DNA from: Arthrobacter roseus
GTDB taxonomy: Bacteria > Actinomycetota > Actinomycetes > Actinomycetales > Micrococcaceae
NCBI RefSeq assembly: GCF_016907875.1
Contig: NZ_JAFBCU010000001.1
Coordinates: 1,240,001 to 1,304,000, forward strand
DNA: 64,000 bases
Direction: 5' to 3'
Below are positions 3,935 to 37,615 of the stretch, piece by piece; within the stretch, counting starts at the first letter, position 1; each line of letters opens with the position of its first letter. The notes under the pieces were generated by a model. That model ran no database searches. It worked only from the letters and a program-made list of their open reading frames with translations, and had not been told where the DNA came from. Made by a program: the position numbers and the translations under genes.

Positions 3935-6900
3935 GAATCCGGCACCCGGTTTCACCCGCACTCGACGCGGCACTCTGCTCAAACGTGCACTGGCAGTGCT
4001 CGCATCCTTCTCCCTCGTCGCAACGTTCGCGACGGCGATGCCGGCCATGGCCGCTGGCGAACCAGAAGCCGCCGCGCCATTGCCAGCCACCGTTAGCGCC
4101 GACCTCCTGCGGACGCCGCAGATCAACGGCGTCGTCTGGAGCGTTGCGGTCAACGGCAACACCGCTTACGCAGTGGGAGCCTTCACCCGGGCCAGGCCAT
4201 CTGGTGTAGCTGTCGGCGGAGCAGGGGAAGTTGTCCGGAACAACGCCATGGCTTTCGACATCCCCAGCGGCACGATCCTTCCCTGGAACCCCAACTTCAA
4301 TGCGCAGGCCCGAACCGTGGACATCAGCCCGGACAAGACCCAACTGTTCGTCGGTGGCGACTTCACGGCAGCCAGCGGTCAAGCTCGTAGCAAGATCGCA
4401 GCCTTCAGCATGGCCAACGGCGCGCTGAACCCGAACTTTCAGACCAGCGTCGGTGGCACAGTCCTGGCCATCTCCATCACCGCGGACACCGTCTACATCG
4501 GCGGCTCCTTCGGCAGCGTAGGGGCGGAGTCCCGCTCCAACCTTGCCGCCTTGAAACGCTCCAATGCCGAGAGGCTGCCGTGGGCTCCTACCACGGACGA
4601 TATTGTCCACGGAGTGCTGGCCACGGCGGATAACAGCCGAGTGGTAGTCGGTGGCCGGTTCCAGAATCTCAACGGTGCGCGCAAGATCGGGATCGGTGCC
4701 GTGGATGGCTCAAGCGGCGCAACGATTGCGTGGGCCAGCACACCTATCCCCGCCACGCAGGGGACCAACACCTCCTGGGTCACGAACATGATTCTCCGCG
4801 ACGGTGTTGTTTACGCCTCCGCAAACGGCATGGGCGGACACTGGTTTGACGGACGCTTCGCCGCTAAATTCGATACCGGCGACCTCGTCTGGCTGGATAA
4901 TTGCTATGGAGCCAGCACTGACATCACGGTCATGGGCAAGGTCATGTACAGCGTTTCCCACGCCCACGACTGCACCTCAGTGGGGGGATTCCCCGAGGAA
5001 AATCCGCAGGTATGGAAGCGCGCGCTCGCTGAGACCATCTATCCCACCGGAACGGATCAGGCGCCGCCGTCGAATAATAGCTCGTATTCGGGCCAGCCGG
5101 TGCCCACACTGCTGCATTGGTATCCCAGCATCAATACCGGTTTCTACACCGGGCAATATCAGGGTGGTTGGGCCATGGACAACAACGGCACGTACCTTGT
5201 CACAGCCGGTGAATTCACCAGGGTCAACGGTGCAAATCAACAGGGCTTGGCTGTTTTCGCTAACCGCGACACGGCACCGAACAAAGTCCGGCCCGAGTAC
5301 ACCCCTGACCTCAAGCCATCAGTACTTTCGCTCTCCAGCGGTACGGCCCGCGTTGCATGGCCTACCACCTGGGATTACGACGATGAGACGCTCACCTACG
5401 ACGTTCTCAGGGACAACAGTCTGACGCCCGTGGGTTCGGTAGAGCAGGCATCCATTTGGTGGAAGGGCAAGAGCCTCGGGATCGTGGACAAGGACCTTCC
5501 TGTTGGTTCAACGCACACCTACCGGATCAGGGTTAGCGACCCCTCGGGTAACCAGTACATTGGTCCCCGCTCAGAGCCTCTGACAATTAGCGATGCCCAA
5601 ACGGGGCCTTATGCCACCATGATCAAGACCGATGGCGCCACCTCCTACTACCGCCTTGATGAACCAACCGGGCCAGTGGTCTACGATCATGCAGGCTTCT
5701 CGGATGCGGATGCTGGCAACGGCGTGAGCCGTGGGGCAGGCGGTGCTGTTGAAGGCAATGCCGCTTCGGTTCTCAGCGGATCGTCGTCGGCCAGTATCAC
5801 CGGACGCACCTCGCAGCCAGCACCGGACACGTTCACAGCAGAGGCCTGGTTCAAGACCGGCACCAATTTTGGTGGTCGCATCATCGGGTACGGGAATTCG
5901 CGCACCGGCTCCTCCGGCAGCTATGACCGGCATGTATATATGGATAATTCGGGCCGGATCTGGTTTGGAGTGTGGACCGGACAGGCCTCGACTCTGAACA
6001 CAGCCAAGACGTACAACGACAATGAGTGGCACCTGGTGACTGCGTCAATGGGTGCTGAGGGAATGGTACTTTCCATTGACGGCGTGCGGGTGGGCCAGCG
6101 TGCGGATACCACCAAGGGTCAGGCCTACGACGGCTACTGGCGGATCGGACACGACAACCTGAACGGTTGGCCAAGCCGTCCTTTGTCTACTGGCATTGCA
6201 GCAGACATCGATGAAGTTGCCATCTACCCGACCGTGCTGGACCGGAGTACCGTCGCTGCGCACTACAACGCCAGCGGTAGGACAGCGGACATTCCGGCTC
6301 CTCCCACTGATGAGTATGGCAAGGCCGTCTACGCCGATGATCCGTCCATCTACTGGAAGCTCGACGACGCTGCCTCCAGTACGGGCGCCGCGGACACCAG
6401 CCTGTCCAATAACGACGCCCGGACAGAGGGCACCGTGACCAAGGCCGTGGCAGGAGCTATTCCAGGCTCCGGCGGTACGGCCTTCGGTTTCAACGGTTCC
6501 GACGCCATGGCTGCAGCCACTCAATCGGTGACGAATCCGAGCGTCTACTCAGTAGAAGCCTGGTTCAAAACCACCACGGACCGTGGCGGCAAGATCATCG
6601 GTTTCGGTAATTCAAACTCCGGCCTCTCTTCCAATTACGACCGACACGTCTACATGCAGGATGACGGGAAGCTGGTGTTCGGAACGTACACGGGAACCAC
6701 TCACACGATCACCACTGACGGCGCGTTCAACGATGGCACCTGGCACCATGTGGTGGCCTCACAATCCGGGACCGGTATGAAGCTGTATGTCGACAGCGTC
6801 CTTAAAGGCACCGATCCGGAGACCGGCGCTGAACCGTACACCGGTTACTGGCGGATCGGCGGAGACCGCACCTGGGGTTCGGCGAGTTCCTGGTTCAACG

Positions 6901-36137: not shown

Positions 36138-36288
36138 GGGTGTGCGTGTGCTCCTTTGTGTCCTTTGGAGCCTAGCGCGCTTTTGTTGTGTCCGCCCATG
36201 ATCTATGCCGGTTCTGCGGGACATCGGCTAAATTTTTGTAGAGTTGCTACAACGTGCGTGGGTGGCCCTCGCCGTCGACCCTCCCGTT

Positions 36289-36343
36289 TGTTGTGCAGGT
36301 CAGGGGCTCTGTGGTCAAAAGACAACCCTTGACCTGCACGACA
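36289..36343. repeat. 55-base palindromic unit, left copy
   Basis: Outer arms TGTTGTGCAGGTCAGGGG and CCCTTGACCTGCACGACA pair over 18 positions with two G-T wobbles. The centre contains GTC-AAAA-GAC, a second small stem. The same 55-base unit occurs at 37441-37495, in the same orientation and with 49 of 55 identical bases, so the two copies bracket the DUF559 gene. Confidence 0.9.
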
Positions 36344-36407
36344 GACATACTGCTAGGTCCGCGATCTGCACGACAGACATACTGCTAGGCCCGCGATCTG
36401 CACGACA
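36334..36407. repeat. Tandem 32-base repeats, about two and a third copies
   Basis: Copies at 36334-36365 and 36366-36397 differ at one base; a third copy, starting at 36398, keeps only about its first 10 bases. Each begins CTGCACGACA, which is the end of the right arm of the 55-base unit, so the array seems to have grown from that palindrome. The copies are directly adjacent with no spacers, unlike a CRISPR array. Confidence 0.88.
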
Positions 36408-36478
36408 GAATAGGGCCCCTCTGCTCAGGCTGTGGATAACTTCTGCACCCCGGGTCCGTTTCTGACCTAATAGGTAGG

Positions 36479-37411
36479 GTGACTGCCGCCAAACCGCTAC
36501 CGAATGGCCTGGAAACCTCGCCGTTCATCCTCGAACACGCCATGTCCATGGGAGTGTCCAGGGACAGGTTGCGCGCCGGTGATCTCAGATCACCCAGTAG
36601 GTCCGTGCGAGTGTCAGTGCATAGCGCCTTCGACTTGGCCGCAAGCTGCAGTCCCTACGTGCAATTACTGCCGGGTAGCGTCATCAGTCACGGAACGGCC
36701 GGCCGTTTGCACAAGTTGGTGTTGCCCCAAGAGGTCGACGACGAACCGCGCCTTCACCTGGCGCGAAGTCCTGGGCAGGCAGTACCGAGGCGGAAACACA
36801 TTATTGGGCACCGTTTGGCGCTGGAGCAGGATGAAGTGGTGCTGGTGAAGGGAGTTCGAGTGACGTCTATAGCCAGGACGTGGCTGGATCTGTCCTCGCA
36901 GCTGTCGCTGGACGAACTTGTCGTTGCCGGGGACCAGATCGTCAGTGAGCATCAGCGGAATTTTGGCCGTCGGCGCACCCCGAAAGTCTCGATGGAAGAC
37001 CTCAACGCCTACATTGCCAGCAAGTCAGCCACTTCCGGGTTGTCCAAGGCACGGAAAGCGCTGGCCCTGATGCGGTTGGGCGTGGACTCGCCGCCCGAAA
37101 CTCGTCTGCGGCTCATCCTGCAGCGCCAAGGACTTCCCGAATTTGTGCCGAACACCCCGATCTTTGATGAAACCGGCGATCCACAGATCTGGACCGATCT
37201 GGGGTGTCCGGCGTTCCGCATCTGCATTGAGTACGAGGGCGCGCACCATCTCACCACCGCGCAGCAAAGCCGCGACCACGAGCGGGACTACACAACAGCG
37301 CAGCTTGGGTGGATCCAGGTGAAGATCAATAAGGACGACATGGGTTCAGGTGAAAATTGGGTGACCGCCAAGGTGCAGCGCGCTCTGAAACGGCGTGGTT
37401 GGCAGGGGTAG
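36479..37411 (+). CDS. DUF559 Vsr-like endonuclease with AbiEi-like N-terminal domain
   Basis: The 310-residue protein has an N-terminal winged-helix-like region (FILEHAMSMGVSRDRLRAGD) and an AbiEi-like middle (VKGVRVTSIARTWLDLSSQL). The C-terminal PD-(D/E)XK fold of the DUF559/Vsr group carries SPPETRLRLIL, WTDLGCPAFRICIEYEG, HH, and a conserved RDHERDYTTAQLGW segment. The Asp and Glu expected at the active site are present. The GTG start has no well-spaced ribosome site, so the mRNA may be nearly leaderless. The gene stands alone between two copies of a 55-base palindrome. Such nucleases occur in many actinobacteria, with no established role that I can name. Confidence 0.82.
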   Translation: MTAAKPLPNGLETSPFILEHAMSMGVSRDRLRAGDLRSPSRSVRVSVHSAFDLAASCSPYVQLLPGSVISHGTAGRLHKLVLPQEVDDEPRLHLARSPGQAVPRRKHIIGHRLALEQDEVVLVKGVRVTSIARTWLDLSSQLSLDELVVAGDQIVSEHQRNFGRRRTPKVSMEDLNAYIASKSATSGLSKARKALALMRLGVDSPPETRLRLILQRQGLPEFVPNTPIFDETGDPQIWTDLGCPAFRICIEYEGAHHLTTAQQSRDHERDYTTAQLGWIQVKINKDDMGSGENWVTAKVQRALKRRGWQG

Positions 37412-37440
37412 CGCGGACCGGCGTCGCACCCTAGCTCGTC

Positions 37441-37495
37441 TGTTGTGCAGGTCAGGGGCTCTGACGGCAAAAGATAGCCCTTGACCTGCACAACA
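37441..37495. repeat. 55-base palindromic unit, right copy
   Basis: The unit lies 30 bases after the DUF559 stop. Outer arms TGTTGTGCAGGTCAGGGG and CCCTTGACCTGCACAACA pair with one wobble. The centre differs most from the left copy but keeps GGC-AAAA-G. The arms of the two copies are nearly identical while the loops differ, consistent with selection or active maintenance of the hairpin. Confidence 0.9.
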
Positions 37496-37522
37496 TTTGA
37501 GGCTGCAGTCCTTGATGTGCAC

Positions 37523-37615
37523 AACAGGCGTGGTGGGAGCCCCTGATCTCCACGGAAGAGGGGCGCCGGGCACTGAACAGGCGTGGTGGGAGCCACTGAT
37601 CTCCACGGAAGAGGG
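37523..37615. repeat. Pair of 40-base direct repeats downstream of the DUF559 gene
   Basis: Copies at 37523-37562 and 37576-37615 match at 39 of 40 bases. Read on the minus strand each contains GTGGAGATCAGGGGCTC or its one-base variant, which matches 15 of 17 bases of GTGCAGGTCAGGGGCTC in the 55-base units. They are therefore diverged half-units in inverse orientation. A further degenerate right half-arm (CCTTGATGTGCACAACA) lies just before the first copy. Confidence 0.88.

Follow-up and report, generated by a model that had tools for sequence, protein, structure and literature searches.

The gene considered here lies in a 64,000-nucleotide stretch of the Arthrobacter roseus genome (contig NZ_JAFBCU010000001.1, positions 1,240,001 to 1,304,000; hereafter the window, whose numbering we use), where a GTG-initiated frame on the forward strand (36479..37411) encodes a 310-residue AbiEi-like/DUF559 protein and is bracketed by two palindromes, neither assigned to a strand. 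The upstream palindrome (36287..36345; model R1, E 2.2e-16) consists of two inverted half-sites of about 22 nt around a 15-nt centre, with the start codon 133 nt further on; the downstream palindrome (37439..37497; R1, E 7.4e-18) matches the upstream unit and follows the stop codon by 27 nt. A sequence-only reading of the locus had described two 55-base palindromes around a 310-residue gene, 49/55 identical, in the same orientation and with near-perfect arms, and this description is borne out: the units at 36289-36343 and 37441-37495 share one orientation and differ at six positions, and the arms agree at 17/20 and 19/20 positions within the two palindromes. As single strands, the upstream unit folds at -17.3 kcal/mol (z -4.6) and the downstream unit at -21.8 kcal/mol (z -8.0). 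An Rfam identity was rejected, the sole match being to an animal microRNA model at 27.4 bits against a gathering score of 66, which we took as a chance fold.

Scoring with a profile of the arms shows that each palindrome is accompanied by further half-sites, repeated in tandem every 31-32 bp. On the minus strand, a direct repeat (36356..36377; 25.6 bits) lies 32 bp from the right arm of the upstream palindrome, with another (36388..36409; 30.8 bits) 32 bp beyond it, and two degenerate minus-strand half-sites (37507..37528, 23.6 bits, and 37538..37559, 18.0 bits) follow the right arm of the downstream palindrome in successive steps of 31 bp, with a weaker copy at 37591-37612 (12.7 bits). The stretch beyond the downstream palindrome also contains two direct repeats of 40 nt (37523-37615), which are 98% identical, lie 53 bp from each other and include degenerate half-sites. 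By Pfam, the four neighbours of the gene encode an oxidoreductase, a biotin carboxylase, Maf and an SDF symporter, the biotin carboxylase and Maf genes directly enclosing it.

The protein joins an AbiEi-like region (36662..36925, forward strand; residues 62-149, E 6.8e-9) to a DUF559 region (37196..37387, forward strand; residues 240-303), which we take to be a nuclease of the Vsr/PD-(D/E)XK type. On the window protein alone the Pfam DUF559 model scores 19.0 bits against a cut-off of 20.6, and in the genome scan 20.6 bits, counted as over the cut-off; of 33 aligned relatives, 20 match DUF559 and all 33 match an AbiEi model at E<=0.01. Residues E207, H257, D266, R269 and W278 are invariant in this alignment and D240 is conserved at 90% or more, and a sequence search at E<=1 recovers a single relative of solved structure, 3hrl_A (E 4.1e-4), in keeping with the DUF559 assignment. 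A Pfam search of the window protein returned no transposase-like domain, and AlphaFold2, given two sequences only, modelled it at pLDDT 35.6. Relatives at E<=1e-30 are present in a patchy manner, in 118 of 197 Micrococcaceae genomes; 50,697 phage records yielded one distant relative, at 29.6% identity, and none was confirmed in the viral contigs searched.

Bracketing palindromes are not peculiar to the window, having first been seen at orthologues in other genera, alike in build and different in sequence. When 94 Micrococcaceae loci were scanned de novo for inverted repeats (18-base arms with 15 or more pairs, centre of 3-50), one was found upstream of the family gene in 66, downstream in 64 and on both sides in 49, where 7.6% per side is expected from the 0.15 palindromes per kb in the remaining DNA of the same loci. 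This set comprises the window, 13 loci from its own and the sister species and the best 80 places of a longer list of relatives, leaving out the remnants L128 and L135, the near-duplicate G047:3412983 and lower-ranked places; the boundaries of L126, L127, L129, L130 and L134 in it were tblastn ends lying partly inside the gene, and these were later redone with full open reading frames. Palindromes occupy 85 of 153 intergenic gaps beside a family gene and 35 of 155 other gaps, and because other gaps also hold inverted repeats, the stronger test is the match between the two sides. Among the 46 loci with both sides in tighter windows, the best 16-base match averages 14.5, compared with 10.46 between loci, and 0 of 2000 permutations were as high. 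Matched palindromes (at least 13/16) flank 40 of the 94 family genes and none of 347 other genes in the same loci, four of which have palindromes on both sides when those of the family gene are set aside.

Flanks compared without hairpin detection match at 15/16 or better in 55/94 of these loci and in 30/40 loci from other actinobacterial families, against 10/394 mismatched and 3/186 shifted pairs; they match at less than 14/16 in 21/94 and 5/40 loci, and the background is such that 55 of the 394 mismatched pairs reach 14/16 or more. The 40 outside loci, 20 from the same order and 20 from the same class, were picked by E-value and near-full coverage, family f11, with its many mostly partial matches, not being sampled; 34 have an upstream palindrome, 30 a downstream one and 28 both, and in these 28 the two sides match at 12-16 of 16, where flanks of different loci average 10.7. 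Matched flanks also occur on the Arthrobacter sp. ERGS1:01 plasmid NZ_CP012477.1 (WP_054009319.1) and in Tsukamurella tyrosinosolvens NZ_LR134454.1 (WP_170181047.1); the four named plasmid loci include two with matched flanks, one with an upstream palindrome only and one with a downstream palindrome only.

Each nuclease lineage has a private palindrome that diverges together with its protein, and paralogues within one genome share none. Palindrome similarity is about 14-16 of 16 at protein identities of at least 70% and 10.4-10.9 below 50%, and over 58 same-genome pairs it averages 10.7, which is background. Exceptions occur in both directions, with a similarity of only 11 for two pairs of close proteins, L236/L262 (81% identity) and L251/L252 (70%), and of 15 for three pairs whose proteins are less than 50% identical. 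More distant paralogues, taken as full open reading frames, have flanks matching at 16/16 (L129, L130 and the sister species' L134), 14/16 (L126, L123 and the sister's L131) and 12/16 (L127); since 14/16 alone lies within the background, the cases of L126 and L123 lean on their inverted repeats as well. The eight other related loci of A. roseus (L123-L130, L128 being a remnant) carry no window-type half-site above 12.7 bits, the background level, over about 5 kb or more on each side. An early conclusion from these loci, that the repeat is without a link to DUF559 genes, was overturned by the de novo palindrome search. Such an unlinked spread had been raised by the sequence-only reading as evidence against its proposal, and it holds insofar as the window palindrome is not found at the other DUF559-related genes of its genome, but most of those genes carry a private repeat of their own.

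The window-type palindrome is dispersed. Model R1, built from 12 units that are mostly among those it then found (L026 was dropped from the alignment), identifies 13 copies in the 3.08 Mb single-contig genome of A. roseus (G000), all with a best E no higher than 3.8e-6, and five sure copies and one weak copy in the sister species (G025), the only other species of the genus in the comparison. The half-site differs between the species in a consistent way, all 10 arms of the five sure G025 units reading GTACA and 22 of 26 G000 arms reading GTGCA, and this difference holds at orthologous sites too (window/L046, L112/L118 and L116/L120), so that the sites of each species have changed together, as they should if all are read by a single factor. 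One G000 unit, at 864422, lies in a stretch that is missing from the collinear sister sequence (6015-6090 of L110 against 7 bases in L135), the one clear case of an empty site; CCCCAC stands on both sides of the insertion, a single instance from which target duplication is uncertain. For another unit, at 280037, the sister sequence is likewise empty, though the alignment there is less clean. The copies at 257710 and 582184 have an 82-base stretch in common (92.7%; L106 5987-6068 and L107 5961-6042), including 24 bases to the left of the palindrome; as the shared stretch reaches beyond the palindrome, flanking DNA can be copied along. At G000:C1:382494-382721 (L038) there is a possible remnant of a related gene (E 0.04, three stops). 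The sister orthologue of the window gene (L046, CANNAD010000003.1, around 5000-5240; G025:C3:180248-181152) is split into two frames near residue 57-62, by decay or assembly error, and keeps its upstream palindrome, while a downstream one was not found there. The unbroken part of the window protein stands at 80.8%, against 93.9, 89.5, 76.7 (Maf), 90.6 and 91.6% for its neighbours, figures that give no clear-cut sign of the faster evolution typical of RAYT genes.

Further afield, the window-type model matches 13 of the 197 Micrococcaceae genomes at E<=1e-4. The arm profile shows clear half-sites at the fetched loci of G079, G145, G171, G182 and G130, and weak or absent ones at the loci checked in G099, G142, G158, G181, G192 and G193. 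A plain pattern search of the 197 genomes gives a match in 88, mostly single one-mismatch matches elsewhere. The model finds 21 places in G145, and in G145 and G079 arrays abut the 3' side of the orthologue; long mixed half-site arrays, resembling BIME clusters, are seen at G145:C1 and at L136, L147, L151 (nine half-sites) and L155. Six of the seven genomes with sequence-verified repeats, the genus of A. roseus included, fall among the 17 of 197 that have a close orthologue (p 1.1e-6), as do four of five without that genus (p 1.1e-4), where a close orthologue is one whose best score is at least 300 bits, a cut of our own choosing, and where shared ancestry inflates these p values; G130 is the verified genome without one. 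The corresponding figure for all 13 model-positive genomes (11/13, p 2.8e-12) was dropped because six of them fail the arm-profile check. An unrelated palindrome belonging to another relative, CGAGTTGCCACNTNTGGTGTCCA, is dispersed likewise, with 26 half-sites each in G127 and G169, 13 in G052, 7 in G112 and none in G000 or G025, against 0-1 per strand for reversed-pattern controls. In G127, which belongs to another genus, these make up 11 complete palindromes and four single half-sites, and because the counts in G127 and G169 are equal, no insertion polymorphism was seen between the two. The ERGS1:01 palindrome occurs at 10 places in its own record and that of Tsukamurella at 20 places in eight same-species records with the same sample description, counts in which one palindrome can appear twice.

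The geometry of the half-sites bears on the form in which they may be recognised. Half-site spacing changes in steps of about 10 bp, about one helical turn: same-strand half-sites lie 29-33 apart in 25 cases (31 in 19 of them), 40-41 in seven and 62 in one, and inverted half-sites 37 apart in 20 cases and 47 in eight (L152 was skipped), although the 37-bp spacing is partly built in, the units having been found with a model that has it, and duplication may have produced the tandem half-sites, so that these steps are not independent counts. According to PMC7319586, the inverted repeats bound by AbiEi are of 23 bp with a 3-bp gap, and for Rv2827c the gap is 13 bp, giving outer lengths of 49 and 59, compared with 59 and 69 for window-type palindromes. 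Spacing and AbiEi-like geometry together point to protomers on duplex DNA, and the form recognised may be double-stranded half-sites of the AbiEi type, not only a hairpin. The two arms co-vary within elements, with 10 mismatches against 30.5 expected in the 11 complete pairs of G127 (0/20000 shuffles as low; four unpaired half-sites excluded) and 36 against 45.4 in 11 of the 13 G000 elements (149/20000; 1095125 and 2595927 left out). This favours a hairpin or fold-back step in the origin of the copies, one that plain double-strand binding does not need.

Before most of the family genes in Micrococcaceae lies a DnaA box. The window has a perfect copy, the 11-mer CTGTGGATAAC, on the forward strand (36430..36440), with TTATCCACA on the other strand. 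Within 160 bp before the gene, TTATCCACA is perfect in 63 of the 94 loci, with 0.17 expected, and present with at most one mismatch in 80, with 1.1 expected, mostly 47-65 nt before the start and extending to CTGTGGATAAC; it is weaker in the 40 outside-family loci (6 perfect, 18 with at most one mismatch). The 11-mer occurs 15 times in G000, including two copies in the dnaA-dnaN gap and three before family genes, and 16 times in G025, five of them before family genes. We set oriC at the dnaA-dnaN gap, about 360.8 kb in G000, where the two boxes lie and where dnaA and dnaN were identified by Pfam. Twelve independent G000 palindrome sites lie on average 414 kb from it, and 214 of 100000 uniform draws were as close in this post hoc test. 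A second conserved cluster (G000:C1:374458-374588 and G025:C1:924388-924411), with two direct boxes 13 bp apart and a third in G000, lies next to the gene of a membrane protein, some 14 kb away from the dnaA-dnaN gap. The box and the ori-ward bias of the G000 copies hint at a replication link; whether expression of the family genes is tied to replication initiation through the box is, in our judgement, evenly balanced.

From the cognate bracketing, privacy, co-divergence, dispersal, single clear empty site, spacing and DnaA box described above, we suggest that the window gene probably encodes an AbiEi-type DNA-binding nuclease with private REP-like sites, following the logic of RAYT and REP with an unrelated enzyme. 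The protein would be an AbiEi-type DNA-binding protein fused to a nuclease domain of the Vsr/PD-(D/E)XK type, whose protomers would bind half-sites of about 20-23 bp, present both as inverted pairs flanking the gene and as tandem repeats in helical phase. By analogy with AbiEi, the protein very probably binds the half-sites of its own palindrome, and the private half-site of each lineage would co-evolve with the protein. The upstream copy may, with fair probability, also serve autoregulation in the style of an AbiEi operator. The most likely source of the scattered copies would be nicking or cutting by the nuclease at paired half-sites followed by repair or replication, and we put such nuclease-driven spread forward tentatively, at a little short of an even chance; the palindromes would then be small elements that are not autonomous and depend on a resident enzyme passed on vertically. 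Taken to its furthest, this would give actinomycetes a large class of self-labelled, wHTH-guided, site-specific nucleases, selfish and transposase-free, each displaying its site in its own flanks, nicking or cutting the centre as a dimer and copied replicatively with DnaA-set timing, an extension that we consider rather doubtful. FokI-type engineered nucleases (TALEN) are the counterpart for a dimer acting on two inverted half-sites.

The main rival is a function as operator only, with plain autoregulation, in which the palindromes would be AbiEi-type sites that regulate or loop the gene, the scattered copies either a small regulon or by-products that arose passively, and the nuclease directed at other DNA, for example of phage. 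Several observations suit this explanation: AbiEi models match every aligned relative, half-site size and spacing are akin to those of the AbiEi and Rv2827c operators given in PMC7319586, spacing moves in steps of about 10 bp, and the species-specific change common to orthologous sites is what a single factor would produce. However, promoter occlusion leaves the matched copy just past the stop codon unexplained, the upstream copy of the window lies at -192 to -134, upstream of the position of the DnaA box, at least one of the dispersed copies (L116) lies between convergent genes as placed by a simple gene caller, and an insertion faces an empty site. We consider an operator-only function unlikely.

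Other explanations fare less well against the same observations. Were the gene and its palindromic ends mobile as one unit, an insertion sequence with DUF559 as the transposase, the presence of one palindrome at both ends and the patchy distribution of relatives would follow, but the window gene and four further locus pairs (L123/L131, L124/L133, L125/L132 and L127/L134) are syntenic between G000 and G025, and none of the 58 same-genome pairs exceeds 61% identity, so that no recent copies of the unit are seen. With this synteny and the lack of recent unit copies among the compared pairs, the arrangement does not look like an active insertion sequence, a reading we disfavour as quite improbable. 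Bidirectional terminators, insulators or mRNA hairpins that flank the gene by coincidence would account for the many downstream palindromes 10-40 nt past the gene end, for the stable folding of the two window units and for the inverted repeats in other gaps; against this, no terminator-like site was found in the window between 36100 and 37700, the arm sequence is lineage-private and common to the upstream and downstream copies, and no control gene had a matched pair. This explanation, too, is disfavoured, and highly improbable. Chance or assembly artefact is suggested by usual caution alone, several of the genomes being drafts, and has a negligible probability given that the arrangement recurs in the sets of 94 and 40 loci and on two of the four named plasmid records, with the permutations, the control genes and the detection-free flank match all contrary.

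If the preferred reading of a nuclease with private REP-like sites is true, it gives a testable role to a widespread group of proteins, those with DUF559 behind an AbiEi-like region, that had no known function, and the principle of REP and RAYT would have arisen once more around an enzyme of unrelated type. One could then predict what each nuclease probably targets from the DNA on either side of its gene, so that recognition rules could be tested on many pairs supplied by nature, and the family might be a source of new DNA-binding nucleases with site specificity.

Among known systems, RAYT and REP (with REPIN and BIME) are the closest in arrangement. As set out in PMC2817692, they share with the present family an enzyme gene bracketed by cognate palindromes that are private to each lineage and co-evolve with it, as well as genome-wide copies, doublets, tandem clusters and a stable gene position. 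In contrast, the RAYT enzyme is a Y1 tyrosine transposase where here it is AbiEi-like/DUF559, the half-sites here are of about 20-23 bp and form inverted pairs in helical phase, and 37-427 copies there (from the same paper) compare with 5 to 21 palindromes here where counted. The Y1 transposase PF01797 is absent from G000 in a search that was positive in five of 14 control genomes, and an aligned consensus of the window's repeat family, inspected by eye, has no GT(A/G)G head. The sequence-only reading had proposed an arrangement of just this REP/RAYT kind in which a nuclease with a different fold takes part; bracketing, co-divergence, dispersal and the empty site speak for it, whereas the absence of a Y1 transposase and the lower copy number mark where the likeness ends.

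The DUF559, MTES_1575 and Vsr-type nucleases resemble the present protein in its C-terminal domain, and we know of no DUF559 protein that is tied to palindromes. Among the papers listed by our literature search, which for the most part did not extend to subscription journals, none is about palindromes flanking DUF559 genes, and of 87 that contain DUF559 or AbiEi none contains the two together. Insertion sequences and MITEs have in common with the present system short inverted-repeat elements and, here, one empty site, but differ in that here the ends are palindromic, the loci show vertical synteny and the protein has no transposase-like domain that Pfam would detect. AbiEi antitoxins and Rv2827c, of the type IV toxin-antitoxin systems, share the AbiEi-like DNA-binding region and, by PMC7319586, the operator geometry, which here is the same or one helical turn longer. 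In contrast to these, the present system has a nuclease fusion, a second matched site behind the gene and dispersed copies; an AbiE toxin-antitoxin pair was rejected, as none of the four neighbours examined by Pfam is an AbiEii/DUF1814 toxin gene. Because every known kind with which it was compared has a defining feature that is lacking here, we set the system apart as new, with RAYT and REP as its working analogue: it has the look of a selfish or regulatory DNA system not described before.
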